From Eubacteriales bacterium (GTDB taxonomy: Bacteria > Bacillota > Clostridia > Lachnospirales > Lachnospiraceae): DNA of 38,005 bases. Under the pieces are notes generated by a model. The model had not been told where the DNA came from. It ran no database searches and saw only the letters and a list, made by a program, of their open reading frames with translations. The DNA is taken from the NCBI GenBank assembly GCA_030531555.1, contig JAUNNI010000021.1:1-38005 (forward strand). The letters run 5' to 3'. Position 1 is the stretch's first letter; the number at the start of each line of letters is the position of its first letter. Made by a program: the position numbers and the translations under genes. Below, piece after piece: positions 3,546-27,600 of this stretch.

Positions 3546-3562
3546 AAACTGGAGGATAATGC

Positions 3563-3817: not shown

Positions 3818-3819
3818 AA

Positions 3820-4008: not shown

Positions 4009-4069
4009 AACGGCCTTGAATGAAGCTGAAAAAGTCAATCAAAAGATTGTGCATTTTTCTTTCGATGCG

Positions 4070-4098
4070 TTGACATTATAACGGTATGCCGGTATAAT
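4070..4098 (+). promoter_or_regulatory. Promoter of the HTH/nucleotidyltransferase pair
   Basis: TTGACA (4070-4075), a 17-bp spacer and TATAAT (4093-4098) give a consensus sigma-A promoter 24 bases before the GTG start of the HTH gene. The direct repeat CGGTAT-GC-CGGTAT occupies the spacer and -10 region and is a likely operator for the HTH protein. Confidence 0.85.
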
Positions 4099-4121
4099 AT
4101 TATTGAAGGGAGTGACGCGCA

Positions 4122-5493: not shown

Positions 5494-5544
5494 CAAAGCA
5501 TAATTTAATAAACCATGCACATGAATGACTGTGTGTGTACATTG

Positions 5545-5572
5545 CGTCACTCTTACATCGAGTGGCGTTTTT
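5545..5572 (+). terminator. Terminator after the nucleotidyltransferase gene
   Basis: CGTCACTC (5545-5552) pairs with GAGTGGCG (5560-5567), with one G-T pair, around a 7-nt loop and is followed by TTTTTATTT. This is a standard rho-independent terminator for the HTH/nucleotidyltransferase transcript. Confidence 0.8.
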
Positions 5573-5590
5573 ATTTAAGGAGGGATGAAC

Positions 5591-5782
5591 GTGGAAATTA
5601 CAATGATTTCAAACAGTAGAAATGAAGCAAATCAGCCAGCAGCCACTTTTTACAAGGTGATTGATGGCAAGCCATTTATGGTTCAGGTTTTCTTTCCGTC
5701 TGCCAATGCTGAGTTGATGCAGAACAAGATAGAACGTATGTTGAGAATGGACATTTTGAGAGATATGAGAAAAATGTCATAA
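5591..5782 (+). CDS. Small TnpW-like element protein
   Basis: The product is 63 aa from a GTG at 5591. An ATG six bases earlier lies directly against the AGGAGGG site, which is too close. The pattern TFYKVIDGKPFMVQVFFPS followed by a helix rich in M and K resembles the small TnpW-type proteins encoded in clostridial integrative elements, but the match is by eye and weak. It lies between the terminator at 5572 and the broken sigma gene. The function of this family is unknown. Confidence 0.55.
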   Translation: MEITMISNSRNEANQPAATFYKVIDGKPFMVQVFFPSANAELMQNKIERMLRMDILRDMRKMS

Positions 5783-5833
5783 GTATCGGGTAACAATGGC
5801 AAATACGCCAGGTTAAATAACGAAGAAAAAACT

Positions 5834-5846
5834 TTGAAAATTTCAA
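5834..5846. promoter_or_regulatory. Short palindrome TTGAAAATTTCAA
   Basis: A 13-bp perfect palindrome lies about 75 bases upstream of the truncated sigma gene. It could be an operator, but AT-rich palindromes of this size are common. Confidence 0.25.
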
Positions 5847-5921
5847 GAAATACTATTGCATTTGAGTGTACAAATCCGGCTTTCCATTCGTCTTAATTAG
5901 TGAAGGAAGGAGGTGATCGGT

Positions 5922-6085
5922 ATGGAGCGTGCTGCGGTACCCAGCATGACCCGAGAGCAGATATTGGAAACATGGGTTCACACCTATGCAGGAGCAATCC
6001 TAAAAACCTGCTTTATTTATTTGGCCGATCATGATCTTGCACAAGACGCGATGCAAGATACGTTTATGAAAGCATGGGAATACAA
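5922..6085 (+). pseudogene. Truncated ECF sigma factor (region 2 only)
   Basis: AAGGAGG eight bases before ATG 5922 gives a good start. Residues 13-52 match sigma-70 region 2: ILETWVHTYAGAILKTCFIY then LADHDLAQDAMQDTFMKAW. After AW the sigma pattern stops abruptly, and region 4 is absent. The reading frame runs on to 6287 only by chance composition. This looks like a deletion junction joining the start of an element-borne ECF sigma gene to unrelated sequence. The product could not bind -35 elements. Confidence 0.6.
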
Positions 6086-6086
6086 G

Positions 6087-6355
6087 GGGTGGGAGCTATT
6101 AAGGAGATCAAAAAGTCGTTCGGAGAAAAGTCCTTGGATTCTCTTAGCAAATATAAGATTGGCTATCTTCACAAACGGATTGCTGATACTGATAATCTTA
6201 ATACCTTACTTCAGTGGGATTCCATTATTACTACAGACACAGAATTCCTTTCCGATGGTTATAGGGTTCAGTTTACTCAAATCATAAATAATGGCATTAT
6301 GACCGATGAAATCTTTGACTTAGTAATCGAGACGGCAAATATTGGCAACGGATAA
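6087..6355 (+). pseudogene. C-terminal fragment of an unknown protein fused behind the sigma remnant
   Basis: In the frame that opens at ATG 6074, the stretch AIKEIKKSFGEKSLDSLSKY onward looks protein-like, with balanced composition, to the TAA at 6355. The first 5-6 codons belong to the sigma gene read out of frame. I do not recognise a family. It is most simply the 3' end of a gene whose front was removed by the same deletion. A strong terminator follows at 6396-6445. Confidence 0.35.
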
Positions 6356-6395
6356 CAGTCAATCACAATTCCACGACAATATAAATCCCTATGCA

Positions 6396-6445
6396 AAAAG
6401 ATCTGACCCGCTCAACCTAAAAGATTGAATCGGGGCAGATCTTTT
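6396..6445. terminator. Bidirectional terminator-type hairpin
   Basis: AAAAGATCTGACCCG (6396-6410) and CGGGGCAGATCTTTT (6431-6445) pair over 15 bp with one mismatch around a 20-nt loop. The A/T ends of the stem give a U tract in either direction. It closes the plus-strand region that contains the sigma remnant. Confidence 0.75.
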
Positions 6446-6633
6446 GTCAATATAGTAACACCTTAGGCATCATAGACAGCGTATTAAATTCTCTTTCTAA
6501 ACTTGTCCCTGAAACTACGTCTGACCATCCACTATTTTCTTACCGTTGAAGTGTTAGGTGGATTGCGAGGGTGTCGACGTAAACGAGTTGTAAATCATGT
6601 TTCCGTTTTAAATATGAATAATCATTTTTTAGT

Positions 6634-6657
6634 CAAAATGTAATTAATTACATTTTG
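6634..6657. promoter_or_regulatory. Perfect 24-bp palindrome, probable operator
   Basis: The arms CAAAATGTAATT (6634-6645) and AATTACATTTTG (6646-6657) are perfect reverse complements. The site lies 18 bp upstream of a -35-like TTGACT at 6676 in an otherwise gene-poor stretch (6446-6906). A dimeric repressor such as TetR or MarR type would fit a site of this length, but no cognate regulator is encoded next to it. Confidence 0.5.
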
Positions 6658-6675
6658 GTATGTGCCATTATAGAC

Positions 6676-6703
6676 TTGACTGCACTATATTTAATAGAAT
6701 AAT
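6676..6703 (+). promoter_or_regulatory. Probable promoter of a small ORF
   Basis: TTGACT (6676-6681), a 16-bp spacer and AATAAT (6698-6703) precede the 37-codon ORF at 6743 and follow the large palindrome, so this looks like one regulated transcription unit. Confidence 0.4.
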
Positions 6704-6742
6704 ACTTGAAATTATGATACTACAAGAGAAAGAGGCATATTA

Positions 6743-6856
6743 ATGGCTTGCTACGCTGTCCAAGATGGGGCAAGCATTAATGAGCGTCTTTTTAAAACAC
6801 AACCCGACCACAAGGACATAAACAAAGTGGCAACAGAGAAAGATAAAAAAATATAA
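6743..6856 (+). CDS. Candidate 37-aa protein
   Basis: ATG 6743 is preceded by AGAGG at seven bases and by the promoter-like sequence at 6676-6703. The product starts MACYAVQDGASINERLF and ends in a lysine-rich tail. No family is recognised and there is no membrane segment. The start codon lies in one arm of an imperfect inverted repeat (6739-6751 with 6770-6781), which could mask it in the mRNA. It is the only coding candidate in the 460-nt gap between the terminator at 6445 and the ABC operon. Confidence 0.35.
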   Translation: MACYAVQDGASINERLFKTQPDHKDINKVATEKDKKI

Positions 6857-6860
6857 ATTT

Positions 6861-6888
6861 TAAAAATCACTATTGCTTACTTAATAGC
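6861..6888 (-). terminator. Weak terminator at the end of the ABC operon
   Basis: On the minus strand, CTATT and AATAG (6870-6887) pair and are followed by GATTTTTAAAATTT. The stem is only 5 bp, so this is a tentative call. Confidence 0.3.
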
Positions 6889-6906
6889 AGCGGCTACATT
6901 TCCTTG

Positions 6907-7539
6907 TCATCGTCGTACATAAAGTTTCCCTTCCATCAATTCAAAGACAAATTCACAAAGATATTCAATGTCCTGGGAATGATGGCTTGCCAAGATAATT
7001 ATTTTACCTTTATCTTTTAACTGCTTAATCAATTCATAAGTTTTTTGAACAGCATTTTTATCTAAACCATTAAAAGGTTCATCAAGCAAAAGAATTGGCG
7101 GATCGTCCATCATGGCCTGAGCAATGCCAAGGCGTTGACGCATTCCCAAAGAATACTTACCTACTCTTTTCCGTATGTCTTGCGACAAACCAACATCATC
7201 CAGCAGATGAAAAATTTCTTGTTTTGTCACTTTTCGCCGCAAAGACGCAAGCATCTTTAAATTGGAATATCCAGAGAAATTCAACAAAAATCCAGGTGCC
7301 TCGATAATTACACCGAACGTGCCTTTGGGAGGAGCTTTTCTTTGCTCATTGAATCGCACAGTTCCTTGATCCACAGGCAGAAGGTCGCACAGACATTTCA
7401 TAAAAACAGTTTTACCGCTTCCATTTTCTCCAATTATTCCGTAGACGTTTCCTCCGTAAAATGTTTGAGAAATATTGTTAAAAACGACCTTTCCCTTAAA
7501 GGTTTTCGATAAATTCTCCACTTTCAATACATTAGTCAC
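6907..7539 (-). CDS. ABC transporter ATP-binding protein
   Basis: The 210-aa ATPase has all core motifs: Walker A GENGSGKT, signature YSLGMRQRLGIA, Walker B ILLLDEP and the switch histidine in ASHH. The short length without an extra C-terminal domain is typical of ABC-2-type exporters of peptides or of bacteriocin immunity. The best start is GTG 7539, eight bases after AGGAGG. A GTG nine bases upstream overlaps that site. It overlaps the end of the permease gene at 7532 and is the last gene of the operon. It would power export or membrane clearance of a substrate, presumably linked to the exported proteins encoded upstream. Confidence 0.9.
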   Translation of the reverse strand: MTNVLKVENLSKTFKGKVVFNNISQTFYGGNVYGIIGENGSGKTVFMKCLCDLLPVDQGTVRFNEQRKAPPKGTFGVIIEAPGFLLNFSGYSNLKMLASLRRKVTKQEIFHLLDDVGLSQDIRKRVGKYSLGMRQRLGIAQAMMDDPPILLLDEPFNGLDKNAVQKTYELIKQLKDKGKIIILASHHSQDIEYLCEFVFELMEGKLYVRR

Positions 7540-8410
7540 TGTATTCACCTCCTATGTTCATTTCGCTTTCAAAACGCTTATTTGATTGAATCAACACAAT
7601 ATAGGCGAGAAGAAAAAGAAGCAAAAAGGAGCAGAAAGGAGCCAACAAACAATATAGCTCAGATGGACGGCTTGGATGGAAGGATGCTGTTTTGATTATT
7701 TCCAATCTGCACCAGGAAATTGGCGATATATAGTATAATGCATCCGGTAAACCCATATATCCAATAGCAGAATCCAGTATTGCTATCACACCCGCAATGG
7801 ATAAGACGATTCTTTTTCCGATAAATGCAGTGCCTATTAGCATTAGGCTCCCCAAAGCGGATAAAGAACAGACCAAGAGGGCGCTTGCCAATAGCCATGC
7901 CTGAAGAGGCGTATATGATGACAAAATCACAGCAGGCGTGTAAAGATAACTATTGCCTACCGCATTACCGTAAGACATAGTATTTAATGCCTTGTCCCAT
8001 GTAAAAGGATGCATGAATGACGCATTTTCTATGATGGCAATCAAAATAAAAACAAACAGGACGTAGAGAATGCTTGTTATTAAAATATAGATCATTCTTG
8101 CCATCCACGATTGCCGTTGGGTAATTCTGATGTGTACAAAGAGAGAAAGATTGGTAACGAACGGAACATCAGAAATCAACACAAAGTAACCGAGCACGAC
8201 CCAGAGCATAAGATAATTATAAGAAGTTAAGCAGGCAAATGACCCATACGCATTCACGTGAATGTTGTACTGCGCAACGATCTGGCGGGCAGATCCAATC
8301 AGCGTATCCAGGATTATGACCAGCAAAGCAACTACCAAATATAATTTAGGCTGCTTTATCAGTCTTTTCAGAAGAATGATTACCGTATTCCAGATGCCCC
8401 GATTACACAT
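7532..8410 (-). CDS. ABC-2-type permease subunit
   Basis: The 292-aa protein has about six hydrophobic segments: near residues 22-40 (LYLVVALLVIILDTLIG), 60-85, 108-130, 170-195, 198-220 and 265-285. There are no large extracytoplasmic domains. The ATG at 8410 follows GAGGAGG by seven bases and overlaps the end of the previous permease gene by eight bases. With the 8403-9167 product it probably forms a heterodimeric membrane channel for the ATPase encoded at 6907. The substrate is unknown. Confidence 0.75.
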   Translation of the reverse strand: MCNRGIWNTVIILLKRLIKQPKLYLVVALLVIILDTLIGSARQIVAQYNIHVNAYGSFACLTSYNYLMLWVVLGYFVLISDVPFVTNLSLFVHIRITQRQSWMARMIYILITSILYVLFVFILIAIIENASFMHPFTWDKALNTMSYGNAVGNSYLYTPAVILSSYTPLQAWLLASALLVCSLSALGSLMLIGTAFIGKRIVLSIAGVIAILDSAIGYMGLPDALYYISPISWCRLEIIKTASFHPSRPSELYCLLAPFCSFLLLFLLAYIVLIQSNKRFESEMNIGGEYSD

Positions 8411-9167
8411 GTCGAAGCCTCCTCTTCTGAAGAAAATAAAATGCCAAAAAACAAATCATCGCTATGAGTATAAAAATTCCACCAGATTTATAAAAAACAT
8501 CTGTTCTGGAAGCTTCATCAATTCCTCCCATTGCCAAAACGACAACATGAGGTAAATTGAAGGTGAAAAGTATTTTGCATAACACTTCCATTGAAAGCAC
8601 CACGGATAGATAGATCAATTGGGAGCTATTTACAATACTGGAGATAACCATCCCAACACTTGCCCACATCATGCCAGACAGCCCTTGCAGCAAAGCATAA
8701 AATCCAAAATATAGCCCCCATTGTTTTTTTTGAACAAGATCTCGCATGTATTCATAAACTGGTTCTGCCTCCTGCATTTTCATCTTCAATACCAACGGAT
8801 GGCTGATCGGCAAGATTGTCAGAAACAATAGCATTCCCAAAGCGGTGGCCAAAGCGCCAAGAAAAGCGGTCGCGAGAAAGCGAATTGTCAAATACTGGCG
8901 GATCGTTGCGCGCTGCAAGATGAAGTTACTATATCCGCTTTTTATATCTTCCAGCATGCTGCAACCTAACGGCAAGACGGCGGCGACGGGAAATAACTCG
9001 GTAAAGGAGCTGAACGCAACAGACGCATCAAGAATATATAAAATATCTCCTGAACCTTTTTCTGGCAAGGCACCGAGCATGTATACAGTGGTGCATAGAA
9101 GAATAGCCCCCAGAAAGCGCCAACTTAGCAATCCGCGCTTTAGATCCACTTTCAATTGATACAGCAA
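8403..9167 (-). CDS. ABC-2-type permease subunit
   Basis: The 254-aa membrane protein starts at TTG 9167, seven bases after GGAGGT. It has roughly six membrane segments, including FLGALATALGMLLFLTILPI and a C-terminal GGIFILIAMICFLAFYFL, and ends in an arginine-rich cytoplasmic tail. It overlaps the second permease gene by eight bases. It starts 14 bases after the exported-protein gene, so all four are one operon. Confidence 0.75.
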   Translation of the reverse strand: MLYQLKVDLKRGLLSWRFLGAILLCTTVYMLGALPEKGSGDILYILDASVAFSSFTELFPVAAVLPLGCSMLEDIKSGYSNFILQRATIRQYLTIRFLATAFLGALATALGMLLFLTILPISHPLVLKMKMQEAEPVYEYMRDLVQKKQWGLYFGFYALLQGLSGMMWASVGMVISSIVNSSQLIYLSVVLSMEVLCKILFTFNLPHVVVLAMGGIDEASRTDVFYKSGGIFILIAMICFLAFYFLQKRRLRHV

Positions 9168-9181
9168 GTTGATTACCTCCG

Positions 9182-10321
9182 TTACTCTCCTTGCCCAAAT
9201 GTGTGAGGGATATACTCACCAGTAATGGCATGGATGTAATCCGTATGATACCAGAAATCCCGAAACTTTTTGTAGTCCTCTTTGTAATATTCTTTATAAT
9301 AAAAACACCAGACTGGAATCATTTGATATGAATGCGACTTGCGGGTAGTATCTTTCAAAACCAGCCATTCCAACAGGATCTTGTCGACAACAATGGGTTC
9401 TGCGCTGTCCCAAATCGTGCTGGAAAGATGCTGTCTGTACCTTTCAATGGCCTCTTCCAGAGGGAGAATGGTCTGGGGGGTAGACCGTGCCTTTTCATTT
9501 TGAAAGAAGCAGTCTACTGCCTGAAACTCCAAAATTCTTTCCGGATTAATTTCACAGCAGATTCCCGCATCGCAAACCTTCAATCCTCTGCAGACATCAC
9601 GGCCCCCCCGATGCAAACGGATTCCCTGGTAGTAAACTGGTATCTCGAGATAATATACTTCCTCATCCTCTGTCCAGTCAAGTTTCACAAGTTGATCTGG
9701 AAATTGTTCAAGCCATCCCTGCGATTTCTCCATCAGTGTTTCCACGTTCCAGGCATCCACATAGGATGGTTCTCCTACCACATAGTTGAGATGTCGGAAA
9801 ACGGGTTCGATTCGGGACAGGGCCGTTTGATAATCGAACCGCGCAAGGATGGGAACACTTAACTGCTCCTGCTCGTGGCAACGGAAATAATAGCCTGTGG
9901 AGTACGCTTCGGCACGGGCTTGAGAATAAAACTTGGAATCCTCATAATGCGCGAAACTAAGGATACCGGGTTCTGACCCCGCATGAATTTTCCGTTCATC
10001 ATTAGATAAGGCAATTTCTCCATGCAGCATTTTTGTTCTTTTTATGGTTTCGTCACCGGGAGACCCCACGGCAAGAAGGCGACGCACCTCATCTTCTGAG
10101 TACCGGTATACTTCTGCTGTCCACTCGTTGCATTCTGTAGGAATAGCGATGTCAGTTAAAGCATCTATTCTTATAACACATCCACCGCAATCCAGCGTTT
10201 TTTGTACCGCTTTCCACTCTGCTGCAGCCCATTCTGCCTTTCCTTCCGACATTAAGAATAAGGGAGACCACAGCATGAAGGAAAGCAAAAGACAGGGCAA
10301 TCGTAACATGCACTTTTTCAC
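9182..10321 (-). CDS. Large exported protein, module B
   Basis: The start is GTG 10321, six bases after AGGAGG. This gives a 379-aa product with an N-terminal signal sequence (KK, then CLLLSFMLWSPLFLM). The mature part is soluble and acidic, with cysteines in LDCGGCV and VCDAGICCEI. Its C-terminal third (ILPLEEAIERYRQHL, IPVWCFYY, HAITGEY) clearly resembles the 10941-11966 product (ILSLDQAIEALNKHL, KPVWSFYI, IDAYTGEP), so the two are paralogues. I know of similar clostridial exported proteins but no activity. It sits between the small exported protein of module B and the ABC transporter genes. Confidence 0.7.
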   Translation of the reverse strand: MKKCMLRLPCLLLSFMLWSPLFLMSEGKAEWAAAEWKAVQKTLDCGGCVIRIDALTDIAIPTECNEWTAEVYRYSEDEVRRLLAVGSPGDETIKRTKMLHGEIALSNDERKIHAGSEPGILSFAHYEDSKFYSQARAEAYSTGYYFRCHEQEQLSVPILARFDYQTALSRIEPVFRHLNYVVGEPSYVDAWNVETLMEKSQGWLEQFPDQLVKLDWTEDEEVYYLEIPVYYQGIRLHRGGRDVCRGLKVCDAGICCEINPERILEFQAVDCFFQNEKARSTPQTILPLEEAIERYRQHLSSTIWDSAEPIVVDKILLEWLVLKDTTRKSHSYQMIPVWCFYYKEYYKEDYKKFRDFWYHTDYIHAITGEYIPHTFGQGE

Positions 10322-10394
10322 AGAAAACCTCCTTGGGAGAAGGCTGGCCATATGTGCCTTTCACGTATGGCCCGCCGAGTTATCGAATCATGGA

Positions 10395-10799
10395 TTAGGG
10401 GTTCCAAGTGCCGCCAGTAGATCCGGCCGATACGCTCGAGTATTGACTGTGTGTCACGGCAAGATAATAACTCACCCCTTTCCATAACCGAGGTTGTCCA
10501 TTTCCGTCATATAGTGTCGTCATGGTAACATGTCCGGTGCCTGTCTTTCTTACACCGTTAGAGGCCTGCCACACAGGACTGCTTTTCCATACACGAAAAT
10601 GGAATGTGGCGTTGGTAGTTATATAAGAAACATCTGCACCCGCGGCAACACCATTACCTGTGGTTTTTGTGACTGCGGAGGTGTTGTAGACACCATTTTT
10701 CGAAAGTGTCGGTGTAGAGAATCCTGCAGCGCTCGCCGATGAAATGGTAATGCACAGAAGCATGACTACAGCCAGTAGCATTGATACGAACCTTTTCAT
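10395..10799 (-). CDS. Small exported protein, module B
   Basis: The 134-aa product starts at ATG 10799, preceded by AAGGAGG at seven bases. It has a clear Sec signal peptide: MKRF, then a hydrophobic core MLLAVVMLLCITI, then SSASAAG with likely cleavage after ASA. The mature 110 residues are rich in S, T, G and aromatic residues with alternating beta-strand pattern, as in small beta-sandwich secreted proteins. It resembles in size and place the 11995-12405 product, though sequence similarity is slight. It directly precedes the large exported protein of module B. Confidence 0.7.
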   Translation of the reverse strand: MKRFVSMLLAVVMLLCITISSASAAGFSTPTLSKNGVYNTSAVTKTTGNGVAAGADVSYITTNATFHFRVWKSSPVWQASNGVRKTGTGHVTMTTLYDGNGQPRLWKGVSYYLAVTHSQYSSVSAGSTGGTWNP

Positions 10800-10940
10800 G
10801 ATAAATCCTCCTTTTTCGATGTCTCAACTTTGAAAGGAAACAGCGTGTTTGCAATTACATAATCAATTTCACCACCCCCTTTTTTATCGCAAGGAATGAA
10901 TAGAAAACAGTTTTGTGCCCGCTATATCATCGATGCCTGC

Positions 10941-11966
10941 TTATACCACCGGTTCCCCTGTGTAAGCATCAATGCATATCACTTGGCGATCTTCATCTCG
11001 CAAGTAGTTGATATAAAAACTCCAAACGGGTTTCAAGTCAATGTCCAAGCAATCAATTGTCGCAGGAAATGGAATATACTCAAGCGCAATGAAATCTATT
11101 ATCATTTTCGACTCAAACGTAGGGAAAATAAGTGATTCCAGATGTTTATTCAAAGCTTCGATTGCTTGATCCAATGATAAAATCTCTTTTGGGGATGACT
11201 TTTCGCTGGTTTCAAAAACCAAGGGAACAAGAATATTGGATACACCCTCTGCGTCAATATACATTGTTATATAGGACTTAGGTGTGATCTCTTTCCGTCG
11301 AGTTTCCTGCCCCCACGGAATAAGGCGTATTTCATCAATCAACCGCTCAAAGGCTATTTCAATAAAGGCAGGCTCATACTTAACAGGCGGTCGATCCTCT
11401 TGAAATACGGAATAAATGGTCATTTGCAATGGCTCTCCCACCTCTATTCCAATACCCTCCAGCGCCTTTATTGCCCTCTGTACAAAATCATGCAACTTGG
11501 AGTTGGGGGATAGAAATGCAGATAATTGGTTTTTATCATATGTATCTTGCGTATATATCCCCTCCATTGCATTCACATAGCAGGCTTCTGCACGTCCGTT
11601 CATATAACGCCACGTAGTATTTGGATCAATCAGGAATACAATACTTTCATAGGTCACCTCATCAAAGAGCAACGCGCATCCGTTTCCCAAATCGAATATC
11701 TGAGGAGAATTGTCACTTTCCAATAATTCAAAATCAGAGAACCGTTCTATCGCATCAAATTTCCATGTCTGAAGGTGTGTGATATAAGAGGACGCCTGCT
11801 CGCATACATTGCACTCTATATCAGCATCAATACTTATGGGAACATCAGCATTTTCTGGCATCCACTGGATATGAAGCTGGATTTCTTCTGCGAACACCAT
11901 CTGGCCGCCAAGAAGGAGCGAGAGGAGCAGCCATACAAGAAAAAATAACCAATGCATCCTCTTCAC
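10941..11966 (-). CDS. Large exported protein, module A
   Basis: The product is 341 aa from GTG 11966, with AGAGGTGG just upstream. The N-terminus is a signal sequence (MKRM, then LFFLVWLLLSLLLGG, then FAEE). The mature part is acidic, and its C-terminal third is homologous to module B's large protein (see 9182-10321). A CxxC-like pair sits in ECNVCEQ. It lies 28 bases after the small exported protein of module A. The role is unknown. Position behind an ECF sigma operon suggests a response to envelope stress or to a stage of growth. Confidence 0.7.
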   Translation of the reverse strand: MKRMHWLFFLVWLLLSLLLGGQMVFAEEIQLHIQWMPENADVPISIDADIECNVCEQASSYITHLQTWKFDAIERFSDFELLESDNSPQIFDLGNGCALLFDEVTYESIVFLIDPNTTWRYMNGRAEACYVNAMEGIYTQDTYDKNQLSAFLSPNSKLHDFVQRAIKALEGIGIEVGEPLQMTIYSVFQEDRPPVKYEPAFIEIAFERLIDEIRLIPWGQETRRKEITPKSYITMYIDAEGVSNILVPLVFETSEKSSPKEILSLDQAIEALNKHLESLIFPTFESKMIIDFIALEYIPFPATIDCLDIDLKPVWSFYINYLRDEDRQVICIDAYTGEPVV

Positions 11967-11994
11967 AAGACCACCTCTTATTGGTAAACCCGTA

Positions 11995-12405
11995 TTAATA
12001 TGATTTGATAGGACTTATTACAGTGGTTGTTTCTAACAAAACTCCTGTAGGAGACAATATCTTTCCCTGAGAGACAACGCGGTAATCATACCCCGCAGTG
12101 ACGGTACGCAAACCCCCAGCTTGCACGGTCTGACCATTGGTTCCCGTGCCCAGCCAGATCGCAATTGTTTGCCAGGTGTTACCTGTTTTTCTTTGTAAGC
12201 GAACAATAATCCTCGCTTGATTTTCAGAACCAGACGGCTTTAGGATTCCTCCGCATCGTGCAGAGCCATTGATGATGGACAATTTTGCAGTAATTAAATC
12301 GGTATGCGAATACCGCAACGGCGTTTCACAGATTTCTGAATGACCGGTTGCTATCGAAACGGCGAATATGGTCAGCAAACAAATTACCAAACCCATTCTT
12401 TTCAT
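11995..12405 (-). CDS. Small exported protein, module A
   Basis: The product is 136 aa from ATG 12405. A GTG one codon earlier is only five bases from AAGGAGG. A short signal peptide (MKRMGLVICLLTIFAVSIAT) precedes about 115 mature residues with beta-strand character, such as ARIIVRLQRKTGNTWQTIAI. It looks like an interaction or matrix protein rather than an enzyme. The ribosome binding site lies in one arm of a 13-bp perfect inverted repeat (12414-12455), so its translation or transcription is probably regulated separately. Confidence 0.65.
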   Translation of the reverse strand: MKRMGLVICLLTIFAVSIATGHSEICETPLRYSHTDLITAKLSIINGSARCGGILKPSGSENQARIIVRLQRKTGNTWQTIAIWLGTGTNGQTVQAGGLRTVTAGYDYRVVSQGKILSPTGVLLETTTVISPIKSY

Positions 12406-12413
12406 CACAAAAA

Positions 12414-12455
12414 CCTCCTTTTGTTGATTCTACTTATAAAGACAACAAAAGGAGG
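12414..12455 (-). promoter_or_regulatory. 13-bp perfect inverted repeat covering a ribosome binding site
   Basis: The arms CCTCCTTTTGTTG (12414-12426) and CAACAAAAGGAGG (12443-12455) are perfect complements around a 16-nt loop. In minus-strand mRNA the hairpin would lock the AAGGAGG of the 12405 gene. The loop contains TTTATAAG, so it could instead be an operator surrounding a -10 box. A second short palindrome, GAAAAGT-GCA-ACTTTTC, lies next to it at 12455-12471. Confidence 0.55.
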
Positions 12456-12485
12456 AAAAGTGCAACTTTTCACTTTAAAAAAAAG

Positions 12486-13253
12486 TTATCTGACTCTTTT
12501 TACGCTTCGAGCAACAGTGATGGCCTGCGATAATTCACCATCAATTACCACAATAAAACATTTATTGTACTCCGTCCATGATATCGTTGATTTTCCTGTC
12601 TTTTCAACAGCTAAAGCATCCGCATCATGAATGGTCAAAACAGAGATTTTCGCATTCTCTGTATCGATGTTTATTCGTGAATCTACATCTAGTTCAAAGA
12701 ATGCCATCCGCCGTTGTTCCGAATTTGTATATTCTACAAAGAAAGAGGATGCGGTTTCATCACCAGTTTGATCCAGCACATATCCTTCCGGAATATAAGA
12801 AGGAAAATAATCACCGGTCCAACTATCGGGAATATTAATTAAATAATTGGGATTCAGGTCAACACTAATTTCTGTATATTTCCCTGTCATATTAATCAAT
12901 AGTCCACGTACATTTGATTGAAATTCAGGGACAAGCGCAAAGCAACTTGCTGCACTAATCGTGACGATAGCTATAACAACGAAAACAAACATTACTACGG
13001 ATTTCATACGACGCAGCAATTCAATTGATGTTTTTTTTATCTTCGTGCTTCTAATTCTATGGCGAATCAGCTCAAATACCTTCGGCTTTGAATATTCAAA
13101 TAACTGCTGCAATTCCTCATCCTGTTCGAAAGCAAGTTCCATTCTTTGTATTTCTGTTTCCTGAAAATCAAAGAATGCAAGTTTCAGTTTGGCAGCTTCA
13201 CATTGTTGAAGAAGTAATTCGCGAGTATTAAAGCTTTCTGCTTTTTCCATCAT
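12486..13253 (-). CDS. Membrane anti-sigma factor
   Basis: The 255-aa protein has an N-terminal cytosolic helical part, a single membrane segment near residues 87-108 (VVMFVFVVIAIVTISAAS) and an extracytoplasmic C-terminal domain with INIPDSWTGDYFPSYIPEGY. That domain is the DUF4367-like form found in clostridial anti-sigma factors. It overlaps the ECF sigma gene by 26 bases, the classical arrangement for co-produced sigma and anti-sigma. ATG 13253 follows GGAGG at six bases. It should hold the sigma factor at the membrane until an external signal is sensed. Confidence 0.75.
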   Translation of the reverse strand: MMEKAESFNTRELLLQQCEAAKLKLAFFDFQETEIQRMELAFEQDEELQQLFEYSKPKVFELIRHRIRSTKIKKTSIELLRRMKSVVMFVFVVIAIVTISAASCFALVPEFQSNVRGLLINMTGKYTEISVDLNPNYLINIPDSWTGDYFPSYIPEGYVLDQTGDETASSFFVEYTNSEQRRMAFFELDVDSRINIDTENAKISVLTIHDADALAVEKTGKSTISWTEYNKCFIVVIDGELSQAITVARSVKRVR

Positions 13254-13803
13254 TTTTATCCTCCAGTATGGATAGCAAGCAACGCCGTGCTCTCGTTAAA
13301 TATTGCCTTACGCTGTTTTTCCCTATTCCCATGGCATATGCAATTTCTTCATCAGATAAATCGTCAAAGTATTTCCAACGCAATAAGTCTCTTTCTCGTT
13401 GGGGCAGGCGTTTCAATCCGTTGACCAACTCCTCGTTCGTGAATGCGACCAGAACGATATCTTCTAAAGAAATTTTCTCATCTTTGAAAGATTCCAGCAC
13501 TTCTTTTTCCACAACAACCGCCTTTTTGCGAGTGGACTTAATGTTGAAATTGATGGATGTCCTTATAATAGTACTGACAATGTAACTTCGCAAAACGCTA
13601 CTATCTTTTTGACGCAATAAAGGGATTTTATCAATCAGCCGGATAATAGCATCATGGATAACATCCTGAGCATCTTCACTGTTTTTAACTCTGGAAAGAG
13701 CAACAGTATACATAAGTTTGTAATAATTAATATAAAGCTTTTCCATAAAAGCACGATCACTATCGTTTTCAATCAAAAGAATTGAACTTGGGATAATAAT
13801 CAA
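13228..13803 (-). CDS. ECF RNA polymerase sigma factor
   Basis: The product is 191 aa from TTG 13803, eight bases after GGGAGG. Region 2 is at about residues 20-60 (YINYYKLMYTVALSRVKNSE, DAQDVIHDAIIRLI). Region 4 is at about 125-180 (LKRLPQRERDLLRWKYF, EIAYAMGIGKNSVRQYLTRA). Full length and intact. It is the first gene of a nine-gene minus-strand unit ending at 6907, which is its likely regulon and includes itself. I see no clear ECF-type promoter upstream. The 840-nt region before it is AT rich and holds only small ORF candidates. Confidence 0.85.
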   Translation of the reverse strand: MIIIPSSILLIENDSDRAFMEKLYINYYKLMYTVALSRVKNSEDAQDVIHDAIIRLIDKIPLLRQKDSSVLRSYIVSTIIRTSINFNIKSTRKKAVVVEKEVLESFKDEKISLEDIVLVAFTNEELVNGLKRLPQRERDLLRWKYFDDLSDEEIAYAMGIGKNSVRQYLTRARRCLLSILEDKNDGKSRKL

Positions 13804-14284
13804 GGATATGCCTCCCTTCTTTTAATGTAAATGATGTCAATTGAGTTGGTATGCGGGCAAATGTAGAGTTTAAAGATTCTTCCAAGAGAATAGTTTTGAC
13901 AGTCTCTAGCTTTCAAACGATATTCACAGGATAGCCCAAGGCATTTGAAAATGGTTAATTTGGGTTTTCTTTGGAGAAATGCTTTATCGGCTATCAGGAT
14001 GCCTTTATTTCCATTATTGTTTAAGCAAAACGGGTGTTTTCTATCAACTGTCTTATAAAAAAATGCTCTGTTAATGGAAAAAGAAAGTAGAAGTAAATAC
14101 TGCTGCGCAAAGTAATAAATGATGGTTAATGAACGGAATTTTCCCATGAGCATAATATTATTTTATTATGTAGAAGTCAGGTTAGTGTATTCTCTGAAAA
14201 CGCGCAAAAAAGTGGATCTGTTTGTATATCCTACTTGTTAAATAATGGAATGAGCAGTCAGACTCGTTACCTTTAATAGCTTCA
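13804..14284. other. AT-rich gap without a supported gene
   Basis: A minus-strand reading frame of 117 codons (13800-14153) lacks a ribosome site and shows no recognisable pattern, so I do not call it. No terminator, repeat or strong promoter stands out. The minus-strand part next to 13803 must carry the leader of the sigma operon. Confidence 0.4.
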
Positions 14285-14407
14285 TCACATGATAAACAGC
14301 CAATACTGTATCTCGTAGACGAAAGAGAAATTTAGCAGAATCAACGTGAAGGGGATCGATAGAACTACGGGCATGAAGAATAAAGACGTCAAAAAAGTAC
14401 GCTTCAA
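14285..14407 (-). CDS. Candidate 40-aa membrane peptide, TTG start
   Basis: GAGGAGGG stands five bases before TTG 14407, the same start type as the sigma gene. The predicted peptide begins MKRTFLTSLFFMPVVLSI and is almost wholly hydrophobic to its end, with KR at the N-terminus. This is the profile of a single-pass membrane peptide, small toxin or signal sequence. A promoter-like TTGATA/TATCAT pair lies upstream near 14460-14490. A longer overlapping frame (14238-14573) has no ribosome site. The evidence is the ribosome site and composition only. Confidence 0.35.
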   Translation of the reverse strand: MKRTFLTSLFFMPVVLSIPFTLILLNFSFVYEIQYWLFIM

Positions 14408-14644
14408 TATTTCCCTCCTCTCTTTCCATTGATACATAAAAGTATCCTTGCTTACTACATAATGATAGCACAAAAAAGAAATTTATCAAGCTCAAGGAAA
14501 ATTGAAATAGCTGTGTTTCTGACAGAATTATTGCTTCCCCCAAAAAATGTGAATCAAGCTGCATGTTTTGCAAGAAAAACCGAGAAGAAAGAAGCGATGA
14601 GGTAGGGGTATTGGAAAGATAATCAAGCCGATTCTGATATTATT

Positions 14645-15745
14645 TTACGTATTTCGTTTTTTTTCCCATTGTAATAGATTATAGGCAAATTCATCTTGTC
14701 TTGGTTTAAAAGAGAAACACAATGGGACATATTCGCCATAATTATTTTTGCTCCTGTTAGTACACCATGTGCATGCGGTCAAATCATGATCAATCAATTC
14801 ATTTGTTTTCCCATTGTTCCAACAAATCTTTCCGTCATAATAGTTGGCAACGCCATAAGCGGTTCCTAACAATCCAGAGCATATTCTAATAATGCCATCA
14901 GGATGAACTAAAACTCTCTCACCTAATTTCGCTGGACAAAACCCATAGTAATTTGGATTATTAAGAAAATCATGTCTTGTTATGAATGATTGAGGTAGTC
15001 TAACCGATATCGGGTATTTTCCTTCGCTGATTTTCAAAGATATCTCATTATAAGCTTTTACCCAATCATCTGGATGAACTTGTAAATCAGAAGACCATAG
15101 GTCAATTGGCGTGCCATCTTTTATTAGTGCATGAAAATTCACTCTACTAACGCCTAAACCAGCTGTATAATATATCAATCTCTCCATATAGTAGTTTCCA
15201 TCCGTATCTTTTTCTAATAGTTCCTGGTATACACAACACGTAACATCAACTCTATATCCGAGAGAAATCGCACGGTTTATATTATCAATTTCTTTTCGAA
15301 AAACTCCTTTTCCACGAATCAAGTCACAGGATTTCTCGTCATAACCATCCATACTAAATGAGATTTCATCGATCTGTCTAAAGGAGTCGAGTTCCAGAAT
15401 TTCTGATGAGAAAGTACCATTTGTATCGATTCTCACATGTTCATATCCAATTTTTTTTGCTATGGCAATTAAATCTCCCAGCAGAAGTGGATTCTTTTGA
15501 TATTTGCCATATAGTGTTGGCTCACCTCCGAGTAGAGTTAGCTTTCTTGCTCCAAGTTCATAAAAATCAGTTATCAGTTTAACAGCCTCATCATAGTCGA
15601 TTTCTTTCTTACCAATACAAAAATAATTGTTTGGTTTATAAATGCATTGAGGGCAGTTCAAGTTGCATTCATTTATTACATATAAAAAAACTTGCTTCAA
15701 ACCTTTAAAATGGTTTCGGAATTTCTCATCAATATCGTAGTACAT
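14645..15745 (-). CDS. Radical SAM enzyme with SPASM-like C-terminal cysteines
   Basis: The 366-aa protein has the radical SAM cluster motif C27-x3-C31-x2-C34 (ECNLNCPQC), a GGEP SAM-binding motif in LLGGEPTLYG near residue 75, and RIDTNGT. The C-terminal region holds further cysteines (GFCPAKLGE, RICSG, CTWCTNRS, PLCF) that could bind auxiliary iron-sulfur clusters, as in SPASM/twitch maturases. SPASM enzymes usually modify peptides, but no precursor peptide gene is visible here. Its ATG shares a base with the TAA of the CYTH gene (TAATG), so the two are tightly coupled. It probably acts on the CYTH product or on a shared nucleotide or RNA target. That is inference. Confidence 0.85.
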   Translation of the reverse strand: MYYDIDEKFRNHFKGLKQVFLYVINECNLNCPQCIYKPNNYFCIGKKEIDYDEAVKLITDFYELGARKLTLLGGEPTLYGKYQKNPLLLGDLIAIAKKIGYEHVRIDTNGTFSSEILELDSFRQIDEISFSMDGYDEKSCDLIRGKGVFRKEIDNINRAISLGYRVDVTCCVYQELLEKDTDGNYYMERLIYYTAGLGVSRVNFHALIKDGTPIDLWSSDLQVHPDDWVKAYNEISLKISEGKYPISVRLPQSFITRHDFLNNPNYYGFCPAKLGERVLVHPDGIIRICSGLLGTAYGVANYYDGKICWNNGKTNELIDHDLTACTWCTNRSKNNYGEYVPLCFSFKPRQDEFAYNLLQWEKKRNT

Positions 15746-16323
15746 TACATCTCCCCCTTATATGTTTTTTCTAAAACCAAAAACGGATACCCTCTTCGAT
15801 CTCTCTTCCCAATCTTTGCATGTAGCATTAATAGAATTTTATTAAAATGATCATAAACATTTTCTATCGCGTCATCACTCACTTCGTCCATTGCTTCTAA
15901 CTCAATATACCAGCCTAAAACTTCCACAAAATCTATGCTTATCTCAACATGTTCAAAAATCCACGAATTTCTCGTTTTGTTAACGTCGATAATTATTTGA
16001 AAATCCATGGCCTCTAATATCTTTTTAACAGCATACGCATCTTGAATAACCGTTTCATATTCGTTGCAATAATTCTGAATTACAGCACCAATAGGAAGAA
16101 ACTGTTTATAGTTAATACTACATTTTTGGCTTGTTTCTCGAACTCTTAGCCATTCTGAAACAATTTCTTCTGACAAAAAATTTCTGTGAGAGGGAGTGTA
16201 ATATGTATCATGTTGCACTTCATTTATTCTCTTCTGTTCCAGATTTAAACGTTCAATATACTGAAATACTTCTTCAGCATTATGTAATGGATATTTAGCT
16301 TCAACTTCTTGATATTTACTCAT
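15745..16323 (-). CDS. CYTH-domain protein (class IV adenylate cyclase / triphosphatase-like)
   Basis: The product is 192 aa from ATG 16323, nine bases after AAAGG. The CYTH signature ExExK is present as EVEAK at the N-terminus. The charged strands that line the tunnel also fit: EWLRVRET, INYKQF, YETV, VNKTR and IDFVEVLGWYIELEAM. Length and the LGxYxExE segment are closest to CyaB-type class IV cyclases and archaeal relatives. Characterised family members make cAMP or hydrolyse thiamine triphosphate or inorganic triphosphate; which applies here cannot be told from sequence alone. Co-translation with a radical SAM gene and a nearby 2-TM protein is unusual and suggests nucleotide-based signalling or modification. 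Confidence 0.8.
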   Translation of the reverse strand: MSKYQEVEAKYPLHNAEEVFQYIERLNLEQKRINEVQHDTYYTPSHRNFLSEEIVSEWLRVRETSQKCSINYKQFLPIGAVIQNYCNEYETVIQDAYAVKKILEAMDFQIIIDVNKTRNSWIFEHVEISIDFVEVLGWYIELEAMDEVSDDAIENVYDHFNKILLMLHAKIGKRDRRGYPFLVLEKTYKGEM

Positions 16324-16481
16324 CGAACTCATCCTTTCAAAGTCAGTTGCTGAATTATTTACTTCTTATTTTAGGACTTAAGACAGACCTCTGCACAATA
16401 TTTGATTGTAGTACCACTCCCCCATCCAATCCTTATCGTAGCTTATCTTCTGTATTCTCCAAATACTAGCAAAAGACCCTA

Positions 16482-17492
16482 TTATGATCCTTCATTCATT
16501 CCATCATTCGCTGTTCTCCATATCTTCTTATAGAACTCCACAAAAACGCTAAATAGTTGTTTGTTGTCTACTTTTGTAATTTCAAACAAAACCTTATATT
16601 GGGTAAAAGGAAGGTGAAATTCCACAATCATTTTTCCTTCTTCGGTATCAGCATCTGCAATTGTCATGCTCATGGGTATAAATGCATTAGACACCGCCAG
16701 CTTAAATGATTCTTGACCGCTTATCTGTATAATGTGATTTTTAATATTTTTCAGATCTCCATAAGACCTAACTACTTTTTCCCGATAATCTGTGGATGTG
16801 TCATAAAATTTATTAAAATGTGCAACATCAATAAGGATATTGTATATCTGTAATAAACTCTTGTACTTATCCTCCCTATCTAATTCTCTTTTGATTTCAT
16901 CCATACTCAATGAACCGTTTTTTATTTTTTCAAATAATTCAGATAGCACACAGTTTTTTTCCTTAAAGCATTGTGAACAAAGATTTTTTACTGCAATGCT
17001 GGGATTCATCATGCATATTTGTATTTTAACCCCCTTTTTTGCCATTGATTTTAGCGTTGCTTCTCTTTCAACCACAGAAGTTAAGCTGACACCTAATACC
17101 CAATAAGTTTTTGTAACACTTTCATATATTTGGTTAAACTTTTCATCTCGTGACTTTTCATCTTGCTTAACAATAAATGCGTCTATCTCCCCTTTTGGTA
17201 AGCTTTCTTTTCTTTTCTTTTTGGAAAAAAAATAGAACATTGAAATAGTGATTAGAGATACTATATAAAGACCTAAAACCACCAAAGCTACCAATTTGAA
17301 AGTATTTGATATGTGTAAAATGTACTCTTTCTCTTTGGATAATTCAGGATTTGAAATAAGTTTATAATAAGCAGAGAATCCAGCACCAAATACAAAAAAA
17401 AGCACTCCAGTAGCAATAATATATGGCGCAGGAACGTTTTTCTTTATCAGATCCCAAACATGGCGGCTTCTTGCTTCTTTCTCGTCACTCAT
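16482..17492 (-). CDS. 2-TM membrane protein with PLD-like cytosolic domain
   Basis: The 336-aa protein has two membrane segments, at about residues 24-43 (IIATGVLFFVFGAGFSAYY) and 66-88 (LVALVVLGLYIVSLITISMF), then a long cytosolic part. Residues about 125-160 (YWVLGVSLTSVV, then LKSMAKKGVKIQICMMNPS) follow the strand-helix-strand pattern of PLD-superfamily domains that sense ligands, but no HKD catalytic motif is seen. A cysteine group follows (LCSQCFKEKNC). The layout of membrane anchor plus sensor resembles effectors of phage-defence signalling systems. The gene is 150 bp upstream of the CYTH gene on the same strand. Confidence 0.65.
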   Translation of the reverse strand: MSDEKEARSRHVWDLIKKNVPAPYIIATGVLFFVFGAGFSAYYKLISNPELSKEKEYILHISNTFKLVALVVLGLYIVSLITISMFYFFSKKKRKESLPKGEIDAFIVKQDEKSRDEKFNQIYESVTKTYWVLGVSLTSVVEREATLKSMAKKGVKIQICMMNPSIAVKNLCSQCFKEKNCVLSELFEKIKNGSLSMDEIKRELDREDKYKSLLQIYNILIDVAHFNKFYDTSTDYREKVVRSYGDLKNIKNHIIQISGQESFKLAVSNAFIPMSMTIADADTEEGKMIVEFHLPFTQYKVLFEITKVDNKQLFSVFVEFYKKIWRTANDGMNEGS

Positions 17493-17502
17493 AGATCATT
17501 TT

Positions 17503-17518
17503 CCGAGAATTATCTCGG
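17503..17518. promoter_or_regulatory. Palindrome in the leader of the 2-TM gene
   Basis: CCGAGA (17503-17508) and TCTCGG (17513-17518) pair around a 4-nt loop, ending 11 bases before the ATG of the 2-TM gene. A TATAAT-like box lies just upstream, near 17550. It could be an operator or a translation-masking hairpin, since the ribosome site of this gene is weak. Confidence 0.35.
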
Positions 17519-17887
17519 CACTCCTTCCAAAGCATTCTCTTATTACATTATAGTACATACAAGATTCATTCAGCATACACTTTTAAGAAAAATGTCGAAA
17601 ACAAATATTTAGCGCTTCAAGCCACTAACAGAGAGTTATTAATGCCTAAGAATCGCCCAAAAAGAACTATTAGAAGGTTTTGCAAACCTGTAGATAAAAG
17701 TAAAGAGAGAAAAACGAAAACATTTCACCCACAATTATCTGTACAGCAAACAAGCCTGCAACAAAGGGTTTTTGTAGATAAAAATAGCGCAGTCGCCTCC
17801 GCAGCCAAGCGTAAGCGGCTGTTCTGCGCTTGCGGCGCTCTTGACATCGCTGGAGGGCTGTGCTCGTCAGGAATCAAGAAAGGCTTC

Positions 17888-24665: not shown

Positions 24666-27600
24666 TTAGCGGGCTTCTTCCAGTATGCGTTTTTGTGCGG
24701 GCTTCATCTGTTCTTTCTCCAGCTCATGACGGGCATTATCCATATTCAGGGATGCGTCCAATTCAGCCAGCCGTGCGCTTTTCTGCTTAAGCTCCGCTTC
24801 CTGCGGGAAAGGCTTGCCCAATTCTGAACGGGCTATTGCCATCTGCTGATTCAGGTTTTCCAGCTTTGCTTCAATCGTTTCCATCCGCTTGGGAATGTTG
24901 CTCAACGTGTTTTCGATACGGGTCATATTTCCTACAGCGTTGGGGCCAAGCTCCACAGGATGGGACATTTCGCCTTTTAGGGTTAGAATGTATTGATTGC
25001 CGATGGGGTTGTACATCAGATACATCAGGAGGCCCCGGTACTCTCCGATGCCAAATTCCTTATCCATTTTCGCGGACTTGCAGGCTTCCAGGATCGCTTC
25101 GCCCGCTTTTTCCTTATCTGTATAGTCTTTTCCCAGGATGGTAATGCCAACAAAATCCTTTTCCGGCAGGGGATGCGCCGCCACGGTATCCTGATCCTTT
25201 TGCAGACCGATCAGGAAGCCTCGGTTCTGTTCGATCTCACGTGGAAATTGCTTGAGCAGTTTATCCTCCAATCGGTACTGATTGCTCTGGTGATCCGCTT
25301 TCATCAGGCGCAGGCGGGCCACATCCACATCCAGCGCCATCTTCTCCTTGATGCGGTCATCCCCGGCGCAGAGGGCTTTGATTTCCGCGTAGGAAAGCGC
25401 CGTTTCGTCCACGTCCTCACAGGAGCGCACAGGGGATTTTGAAGTCATGATCTGCGAGATAAAACGCTGTTTATTCTCCACGGTCTGCCACAAGTACGAA
25501 TCAAATGATCCTTCCGTAACATACCGATAAATATGGACTTTGGGATTCATATTGCCCTGCCGGACAATACGCCCTGCCCGCTGTTCCAGGTCGCCGGGAC
25601 GCCAGGGACAGTCCAGATCGTGGCTGGCAATCAGCCTGTCCTGGACGTTGGTACCGGCACCCATTTTGGCCGTGCTGCCAAGCAATACGCGCACCTGGCC
25701 GGAGCGTACCTTTGCAAAGAGTTCTTTCTTTTTTACTTCCGTATCGGCGTCGTGGATAAAGGCGATTTCCTCCCTGGGAACGCCGCGGGCAATGAGTTTA
25801 TCCCGAATATCCTCATACACGGAGAAATCATTATTCTTGGCTGCGCTGAACAGGCTTCCTTCCTGCTCATCTTCTTCCAGGGGAAAATCGCCAAATTCAT
25901 CATCCAGATCAGGCACAGGCGCTTTTTCCGCCTCTGCCGTCCCTTCTTTTGCAGTTTGCTCCGCCGTTTTTCCCGCCGCTCCCTTGGGTGTGGAAATATC
26001 GCAGAAAATGAGCTGAGTCAGCCTGTCCGCCGATCCTTCCTGCCAGATGCGGAAAACATTGTTGACGCATTGATTGACCTTGCTCCCCGGATCGTCCGGC
26101 AGCAGGGGATTGATCATTCGCTGATCCAGACCCAGCTTTCTTCCGTCGCTGGTCACCTTCAGCATATTGTCCTTCCGGGGATCAATCCCGGCGTGAATGG
26201 CGGATGCACGGCGGGAAAGCTCCTGGATCATGGCTTTCTGGTGTTCCGTAGGCTGGGCCACCACCGTTTCAAACTGCACCTCCGGCGTGGGCAGGTTCAG
26301 CTGATCCGCCGTTTTTATATCAGCAATCTCCTTGAACATCGTCATAAGCTCCGGGAGATTGAAGAATTTGGCGAAGCGGGTGCGGGCGCGATAGCCGGTT
26401 CCCTCTGGGGCCAATTCGATGGCTGTGACGGTTTCCCCGAAGGTACTGGCCCAGCAATCGAAATGGGTCATGTTGTTTCGCCGCAGGGTATCATATTGCA
26501 GATACCGCTGCATGGTGTACTACTCCGTCATGGAATTGGAAACGGGCGTACCTGTGGCGAATACCACGCCCCGGCCACCCGTGATCTCATCCATATACCG
26601 GCATTTCAAAAACATGTCCGTGGACTTCTGCGCTTCGCTGGTGGAAAGGCCCGCCACATTGCGCATTTTCGTCAGCAGGAACATGTTTTTATAGTTGTGC
26701 GCTTCGTCCACGAACAGCCTGTCCACACCCAGCTGCTCAAAGGTCACAACATCGTCTTTTTTCTCCTGTGCCTGCAATTTCCGCAGGCGGCCTTCCAACT
26801 GCTTCTTGGTGCGCTCCAACTGCTTGATGGAAAACTGCTCACCGCGGGTCATTTTCAGTTCCTGAATGCCTTTGGTCAATTCGTCAATCTGATCTTGGAG
26901 CAGCATTTCCTGCCTTCCCATGGATACGGGGATACGCTCAAATTGGGAGTGGCCGATGATCACGGCGTCGTAATCTCCGGTGGCGATTCGGGCGCAGAAC
27001 TTTTTGCGGTTGGATTTTTCAAAATCCCGTTTCGTCGTTACCAGGATTTTGGCAGAAGGATAGAGCCGTAGAAATTCCGCCGCCCACTGTTCCGTTAAGT
27101 GATTGGGCACCACGAACATGCTTTTCTGACAAAGGCCCAGGCGCTTGGATTCCATAGCGGCACCGGCCATTTCAAAAGACTTGCCTGCCCCTACCACATG
27201 AGCAAGCAGTGTGTTCCCGCCGTACAGAATGTGCGCGATGGCATTCCGCTGGTGCTCCCGCAGGCTGATTTCAGGATTCATGCCGGAGAAGGTGATGTGC
27301 TGCCCGTCGTATTCCCGGGGACGGATGGAATTGAAAAGCTCGTTGTACCGGGTGACCAGGGTTTCTCTCCGCCGAGCGTCCTTCCATATCCACTCCCTGA
27401 AAGCGTCTTTGATGGCCTGCTGCTTCTGCTGGGCCAGGGTGGTTTCCCTTTGGTTCAGCACGCGCTTTTCTTTTCCGTCCGCGTCCTCGATGGTGTCATA
27501 AATACGCACGTCCCTTAGATTCAGGGTATCTTCCAGGATTCTGATGCCGTTGGCCCGATCCGTGCCATAAGTCAGGTTCACAGGCACGTTGCTGTAGGAA

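Follow-up and report, generated by a model that had tools for sequence, protein, structure and literature searches.

Analysis of a 38,005-nucleotide stretch of DNA (the window; contig JAUNNI010000021.1 of the Lachnospiraceae assembly GCA_030531555.1) revealed a gene for a CYTH (triphosphate tunnel) protein joined to a gene for a radical SAM enzyme (rSAM), with a third gene nearby whose product carries two hydrophobic, putatively transmembrane, stretches (the 2-TM protein; Table 1). As a first-pass annotation of the sequence had noted, the three open reading frames (ORFs) share the minus strand, and the rSAM ATG and the CYTH stop codon have base 15745 in common, a one-base overlap. The third gene lies upstream, separated from the CYTH gene by 149 bp. 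All three genes are A+T-rich: their G+C content is 0.32-0.35, while the window as a whole averages 0.43, the interval 8403-13803 has 0.42, and the stretches carrying the IS110, relaxase and helicase genes reach 0.53-0.54. A promoter and terminator scan of 14200-17800 returned no more sites than shuffled sequences did, and thus neither joins nor splits the three genes.

Table 1. Positions of the genes under study and of other features mentioned in the text
Locus	Feature	Position	Strand	Remarks
Window	rSAM (radical SAM enzyme)	14645-15745	-	366 aa; CxxxCxxC and conserved C-terminal Cys
Window	CYTH (triphosphate tunnel) protein	15745-16332	-	195 aa; ExExK, WxRxR and ExE, no HF motif
Window	Third protein (2-TM)	16482-17492	-	336 aa; two N-terminal hydrophobic stretches; passes no Pfam model
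Window	AbiEi/AbiEii toxin-antitoxin pair	1080-2643		Strong PADLOC matches
Window	615-aa and 588-aa ORFs	24666-28286		Partial helicase matches
L002 (G000:C31)	Second CYTH gene of the window's genome	21512-22036		
L010	rSAM relative with biosynthetic genes	2279-12863		
L015	rSAM with receiver-like tail	9851-11362		
L022	rSAM cassette	8587-14876		
L025	rSAM cassette	8143-14856		

Recurrence of the CYTH-rSAM pair

The coupling of CYTH and rSAM genes is real and recurs beyond the window. Searching genome contigs with an rSAM alignment of three rows produced 22 loci, or 23 with the window, and the presence of a CYTH gene at each was judged by gene clustering (BLASTP) and profile tests. A CYTH gene was located within about 3.3 kb of the rSAM gene in 16 of the 23 loci, namely the window, L017, L028 and 13 of the 17 loci of a Clostridia group, which together make up four neighbourhood types. 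Two relatives, L008 and L010, are by gene content the same contigs as L028 and L020, respectively. The rSAM of L008/L028 is 43 % identical to that of the window and has another CYTH gene upstream, its frame being interrupted near the N-terminus, and the rSAM of L010/L020 is 50 % identical. The two genes are 83 bases apart in L017. In 12 of the 13 paired Clostridia loci their starts lie 1.6-1.7 kb apart with a LysR gene between them, and in L032 the distance is 3.2 kb. In all 17 Clostridia loci the rSAM gene is preceded by a LysR gene, and its product has a receiver-like tail at the C-terminus that was tested against Pfam in L015 alone (Response_reg, E-value 6e-4, below the cut-off).

The window's own genome served as a control, and gave 2 CYTH and 33 rSAM matches (31 over the cut-off), of which only the window pair is adjacent. 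This suggests, as a rough estimate, that about 0.4 % of rSAM genes would have a CYTH gene within 3.3 kb by chance; three such cases among the five other neighbourhood types would then be very unlikely to arise in that way. Chance adjacency was ruled out on the recurrence and on this control.

Several observations weigh against a broad reading of the pairing. Most of the Clostridia loci (17 in all) are closely related and provide few independent cases, three of their rSAMs being identical over the 400 residues used, and six neighbourhood types were therefore counted rather than 23 loci. No CYTH gene was found at seven of the 23 loci (L019, L021, L023, L024, L020, L022 and L025); the first four lack it by clustering and have LysR and Spo0A-like neighbours, their other neighbours lying outside the Pfam scan. 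The CYTH proteins of the window and L008 gave no significant BLASTP alignment, and the identity to the window CYTH was 27 % for L017, 17 % for L008/L028 and, in the profile alignment, approximately 16 % for the Clostridia group. The Clostridia-group CYTH gave no Pfam match in the one member scanned; its nine-row profile confirmed it as a divergent CYTH, matching other CYTH proteins (probability 96.5, E-value 9.3e-10) and, among solved structures, CYTH 2een (4.6e-7) and class IV cyclases (about 9e-4). It has also lost the N-terminal ExExK, in place of which E-I-T is invariant in 9/9 aligned members. This large group may have lost catalysis, which would then not be general among these CYTH proteins.

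The linkage across genomes that the first-pass annotation expected of three genes therefore holds for the CYTH-rSAM pair and fails for the trio, as BLASTP clustering did not find the 2-TM protein at any of the 22 rSAM loci outside the window (some fetched stretches stop at contig ends). No relative was found in 60 other near genomes (1/61, the window's own) and the plasmids searched gave no match. Weak, partial matches in 9/290 other class genomes (E-values 6e-4 to 9e-3, 22-40 % identity) were not taken as relatives. The hydrophobic stretches span residues 20-43 and 57-90 of this protein, for which no Pfam family exceeded its cut-off and nothing in the PDB scored better than E 0.05. Its single-sequence structure model was too poor for use, with a predicted local distance difference test score (pLDDT) of 45.6. 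The label 'PLD-like' is unsupported, as neither an HxK nor an HKD (HxKxxxxD) motif occurs in the 336 residues. From its position the protein may, at a guess, be an effector, and it would be an optional neighbour of the CYTH-rSAM pair.

The CYTH protein and its radical SAM partner

The window CYTH matches the Pfam CYTH family over the cut-off (3.1e-16). Passages of Vogt et al. (2021, PMC8233210) state that a class IV cyclase needs HFxxxxExExK, has ExA and replaces the first Arg of xRxR with a small residue, whereas triphosphatases have ExE and thiamine triphosphatases (ThTPases) a W/YxRxR motif. The ExExK anticipated for the window CYTH is present (EVEAK, residues 9-13), alongside W61-L-R63-V-R65 and E144-L-E146. 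HFxxxxExExK is absent, residues 3-4 being S and M. The protein thus departs from the class IV cyclases in having no HF, ExE rather than ExA and the Arg of xRxR retained, and it carries the full ThTPase-type set of ExExK, W/YxRxR and ExE. By the rules of PMC8233210 it is predicted to be an organic triphosphatase, acting by hydrolysis, whose aromatic residue is of the ThTPase type. The first-pass annotation had instead described tunnel residues of class IV cyclases and suggested a modified or cyclic nucleotide product; the former are not found, and a cyclic product is unlikely because the protein lacks the HF motif and has the triphosphatase motifs WxRxR and ExE. The corresponding motifs are EVEIR (ExExR), WLRLR and EVE in L017, and ENELK, TLRIR and ELE in L008.

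Comparison with solved structures by profile pointed the same way, as the best matches of a four-row CYTH profile were the triphosphatase Saci_0718 (8.8e-22) and PH1819 (2.9e-21). Two results count on the other side: the profile also matches class IV cyclases, if less well (3n0y, 7.3e-11; 2fjt, 9.2e-11), and the window CYTH passes the NCBIfam cyaB model TIGR00318 with 66.4 bits over a cut-off of 57.95. The latter is not decisive because cyclase-annotated CYTH proteins can be triphosphatases; according to the passages of PMC8233210, Saci_0718 too had been annotated as a cyclase, yet it turned out to have triphosphatase activity and formed no cyclic nucleotide. The window CYTH resembles Saci_0718 (SaTTM) and the ThTPases in its CYTH family profile, ExExK, xRxR and ExE, and the ThTPases further in the W of WxRxR. 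For SaTTM no radical SAM partner is mentioned, the term 'radical SAM' having 0 occurrences in PMC8233210. With CyaB, it shares the CYTH superfamily and the TIGR00318 match, but not HF or ExA.

Relatives of the window CYTH are few. As a query it found 4/150 family genomes, including its own and three with weak matches, and 1/398 phylum genomes, its own; no CYTH match was obtained among the plasmids searched. For the second CYTH gene of the window's genome (L002), the closest rSAM on the same contig is some 19 kb away; this CYTH gene is convergent with a gene resembling, by eye, phosphate acetyltransferase, and is probably a chromosomal housekeeping copy.

The rSAM passes the Pfam Radical_SAM model (4.5e-15; 56.7 bits against a cut-off of 29.5). 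In an alignment of 10 rows, picked for diversity from the loci on hand, the CxxxCxxC cysteines (C27, C31 and C34) are kept in 9/9 non-gap rows, and C171, C270, C289, C328 and C343 in 10/10. The extra C-terminal cysteines reported at first pass are thus confirmed as four conserved residues, and this region would form a twitch-like auxiliary iron-sulphur cluster. A structure model built from the ten rows reached a pLDDT of 74.4 and a predicted TM-score (pTM) of 0.79, and was weak around the CxxxCxxC loop.

None of the best 25 of 49 NCBIfam families was approached at its cut-off by the rSAM, and its assignment by curated model to the rSAM/SPASM maturases of ribosomally synthesized and post-translationally modified peptides (RiPPs) was rejected, no cut-off being reached among these. 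MoaA, sactipeptide maturase and viperin models matched far below threshold. Radical SAM enzymes that act on nucleotides, such as viperin and MoaA, are few and rewarding, and MoaA has a C-terminal cluster. The solved structure closest to the rSAM profile is MoaA (GTP 3',8-cyclase; 1.2e-11), but the window rSAM scores 49.2 bits against that model's cut-off of 284, and no molybdenum-cofactor gene was seen among the scanned neighbours. PADLOC returned only matches to pVips (prokaryotic viperins), at about 22-41 bits. The likeness to pVips lies in a radical SAM enzyme within a mobile, defence-bearing setting and, for the kinase-associated pVips of the PADLOC model names, in the nucleotide kinase beside some rSAM relatives. 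However, the window rSAM reaches 40.5 bits against the viperin cut-off of 180 (NF038283), has the extra conserved C-terminal cysteines and is accompanied by a CYTH gene in place of the kinase.

The rSAM family is rare. The window rSAM matched 2/291 class genomes and 2/246 order genomes, its own being counted in each, and the rSAM profile found 1/398 phylum genomes (its own), 1/38 in the family of G978 and 1/6 in the order of G669, the last two being the genomes of relatives already known. Actinobacterial plasmid relatives are only 26-29 % identical. Single-protein searches of viral contigs with the rSAM, CYTH or 2-TM protein gave no match, and phage records gave one weak rSAM match (25 % identical). 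The rSAM tree, which does not firmly order its main branches, groups the window with L028 (96/97), a long and incomplete row.

Nucleotide enzymes beside the rSAM and the proposed function

The tight CYTH-rSAM coupling and the nucleotide theme that had been suggested for the pair are both supported, the latter by the neighbours of its relatives. By Pfam, L017 carries rSAM, CYTH, Nudix and HAD genes in a row, and L008/L028 a CYTH, an rSAM and a pyruvate-kinase barrel. The three loci without CYTH that support the nucleotide link (L020, L022 and L025) do so because they carry other nucleotide enzymes. In L010/L020, genes resembling thymidylate kinase (TMK-like) and, three times, dCTP deaminase (DCD-like) stand beside the rSAM (Pfam). 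L022 has ThyA (6e-64) and dCMP deaminase by Pfam and a Nudix gene that clusters with that of L017, and L025 has dCMP deaminase by Pfam with Nudix and ThyA-like genes by clustering. On L051, an actinobacterial-looking contig of a viral collection that also encodes a PfkB kinase, an rSAM of 27 % identity has, about 1.6 kb away, a Nudix gene 38 % identical to that of L017 and 35 % to that of L025. Relatives on Nocardia and Kitasatospora plasmids adjoin genes for a nucleotidyltransferase and for a protein annotated as glutamyl-tRNA synthetase (GluRS).

We propose, with a probability of about 0.5, that the CYTH-rSAM pair is a nucleotide-tailoring module carried by a mobile element, in which the CYTH protein is an organic triphosphatase. 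The rSAM, with its auxiliary cluster, would make a radical change to a nucleoside, a nucleotide or a close organic-phosphate relative; this substrate and the order of the steps are inferred. The CYTH tunnel would hold an aromatic head group through WxRxR, and the enzyme would dephosphorylate the substrate or the product when either carries a triphosphate. Such dephosphorylation could be a step of the pathway, or could keep the triphosphate form out of RNA and DNA.

An alternative that we regard as doubtful is nucleotide-signalling defence, in which phage infection prompts the pair to produce a modified nucleotide that is sensed by a membrane or protease effector, in the window the 2-TM protein. 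The contig is mobile, with a relaxase, an IS110-type transposase and a serine recombinase, and it bears AbiE and a partial DrmD-like helicase match; the 2-TM gene lies on the same strand directly upstream of the pair. Three genes from the rSAM, L022 and L025 each encode a trypsin protein that matches the effector-associated domain (EAD) EAD7 below threshold, and L022 has a weak PADLOC 2TM-effector match upstream. Passages of PMC7159879 describe EADs as marks of conflict systems, and mention one other rSAM association and no CYTH. Against defence, PADLOC recognised no signal synthase or effector in the three proteins, giving only the weak pVip matches for the rSAM and none for CYTH or the 2-TM protein. 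None of the three matched a nucleotide-cyclase synthase or effector model of the kind used in cyclic oligonucleotide-based antiphage signalling (CBASS), the rest of the contig being partly scanned. Furthermore, no relative of the 2-TM protein accompanies the other rSAM copies and none elsewhere convinces, the CYTH protein is not cyclase-like, and the largest group of loci, with its LysR and Spo0A-like neighbours, is not defence-like. The first-pass argument from phage-defence logic and surroundings therefore stands for the mobile, AbiE-bearing contig and not for the signalling components, and the TIR protein it listed was not recovered, no TIR model matching in the Pfam scan, which covered 21 of the window's ORFs. 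A conflict or defence role is possible, on circumstantial grounds.

It is unlikely, in our estimation, that the module instead makes a secreted nucleoside-like natural product from which CYTH, Nudix and HAD enzymes strip the phosphates last. The row of these enzymes in L017, the ABC-2 transporter genes adjoining the L008 pair, the neighbours of the Nocardia and Kitasatospora relatives and the gene content of L010 are consistent with this explanation, but no transporter gene adjoins the pair in the window and the actinobacterial relatives are distant in sequence. The stretch of L010 in question encodes two methyltransferases, a carbamoyltransferase, two proteins resembling histidyl-tRNA synthetase (HisRS-like), an exo/endonuclease-phosphatase-like protein, the rSAM, the TMK-like protein and three tandem DCD-like proteins, an apparent nucleoside-type biosynthetic cluster.

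A further idea, to which we also give little weight, is an immune or conflict module of new chemistry, in which a radical-modified, rather than cyclic, nucleotide would be the alarm or poison, its level set by the CYTH triphosphatase. The nucleotide enzymes added (CYTH, Nudix, ThyA/deaminase or TMK/DCD) would then vary between loci, as would the effectors (the 2-TM protein in the window, the EAD7-like/trypsin protein in L022 and L025).

That the rSAM matures a RiPP and the CYTH gene is a bystander appears distinctly improbable. The C-terminal four-Cys region is like that of SPASM/twitch enzymes, the NCBIfam neighbours of the rSAM include peptide maturases, and L008/L028 also has PqqD, CPBP protease and ABC transporter genes, a peptide-like setting that counts against the nucleotide-tailoring proposal. 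The peptide-maturation role that had been held out as the competing outcome thus has weak backing at one locus. However, the maturase models among the best 25 families fell well short, PqqD occurs in one neighbourhood type only (neighbours elsewhere were partly scanned), CYTH recurs and inspection by eye of three minus-strand stretches flanking the window genes showed no obvious precursor among their 20-120 aa ORFs. That the CYTH protein is a class IV adenylyl cyclase making cAMP or another cyclic nucleotide is the least credible explanation, as the TIGR00318 score is countered by the motif set and by the precedent of Saci_0718.

Our literature search found no description of a CYTH-rSAM pair, most subscription papers and bioRxiv preprints being outside its coverage, nor of CYTH and radical SAM in a conflict system or radical SAM with a class IV adenylate cyclase. 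In the text that was searchable, CYTH and radical SAM occurred together only in a phage isolation report (PMC10473537), and CYTH domain and anti-phage in a paper on wasp gut bacteria. The rSAM family is compact and its residues are highly conserved, and its ties to nucleotide enzymes (in Clostridia to CYTH, Nudix and proteins resembling thymidylate synthase and deaminases; on an actinobacterial-looking contig to Nudix) make it a concrete place to seek an undescribed nucleotide. The pair also gives CYTH proteins, many of which have unclear cellular roles, a testable partner.

Other observations and a possible four-base reading of CGGN in related gut Clostridia

The 615-aa and 588-aa ORFs of the window, with DrmD-like and weaker BrxH-like partial matches, might be the split helicase of a defence system. 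The cassettes of L022 and L025 each combine the rSAM with Nudix, thymidylate-synthase-like, EAD7-like/trypsin and dCMP-deaminase-like genes, and look like an undescribed conflict or nucleotide-tailoring cassette; upstream of that in L025 is a sub-threshold DUF2971 match. The rSAM with a receiver-like tail, exemplified by L015, stands by LysR and an opposite-strand Spo0A-like gene in L011-L016, L018, L019, L021, L023 and L024. The acceptor Asp that we would expect of a receiver looks replaced in the L015-type tail, which is perhaps a pseudo-receiver.

In six gut-Clostridia loci from metagenome-assembled genomes (L026, L027 and L029-L032), several genes, encoding rSAM, LysR, receiver-like and Spo0A-like proteins, shift to the +1 frame exactly at CGG. 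In the rSAM gene, 9/9 uncompensated insertions away from the end of the alignment are a C before GGN. Of the CGG words preceded by 60 or more open codons, 16/21 coincided with a frame junction, compared to 0-5 junctions for 14/15 control triplets and 10/120 for AGG; in ten sibling loci CGG words were at junctions in 2/10. Of the 16 junction words, 15 align to one sibling residue in the top three matches (G in 8, a G/A mix in 3 and P in 4, all four of the last at one LysR site). The six loci themselves contain no tRNA, and no title among the literature matches listed described a natural quadruplet CGGN code. CGGN seems, from these alignments, to be read as one residue, mostly Gly, and a natural quadruplet code in this clade is possible; the observation may outweigh the CYTH-rSAM finding in importance. 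When CGGN is read as Gly, the rSAM genes of L029 and L031 are open throughout.

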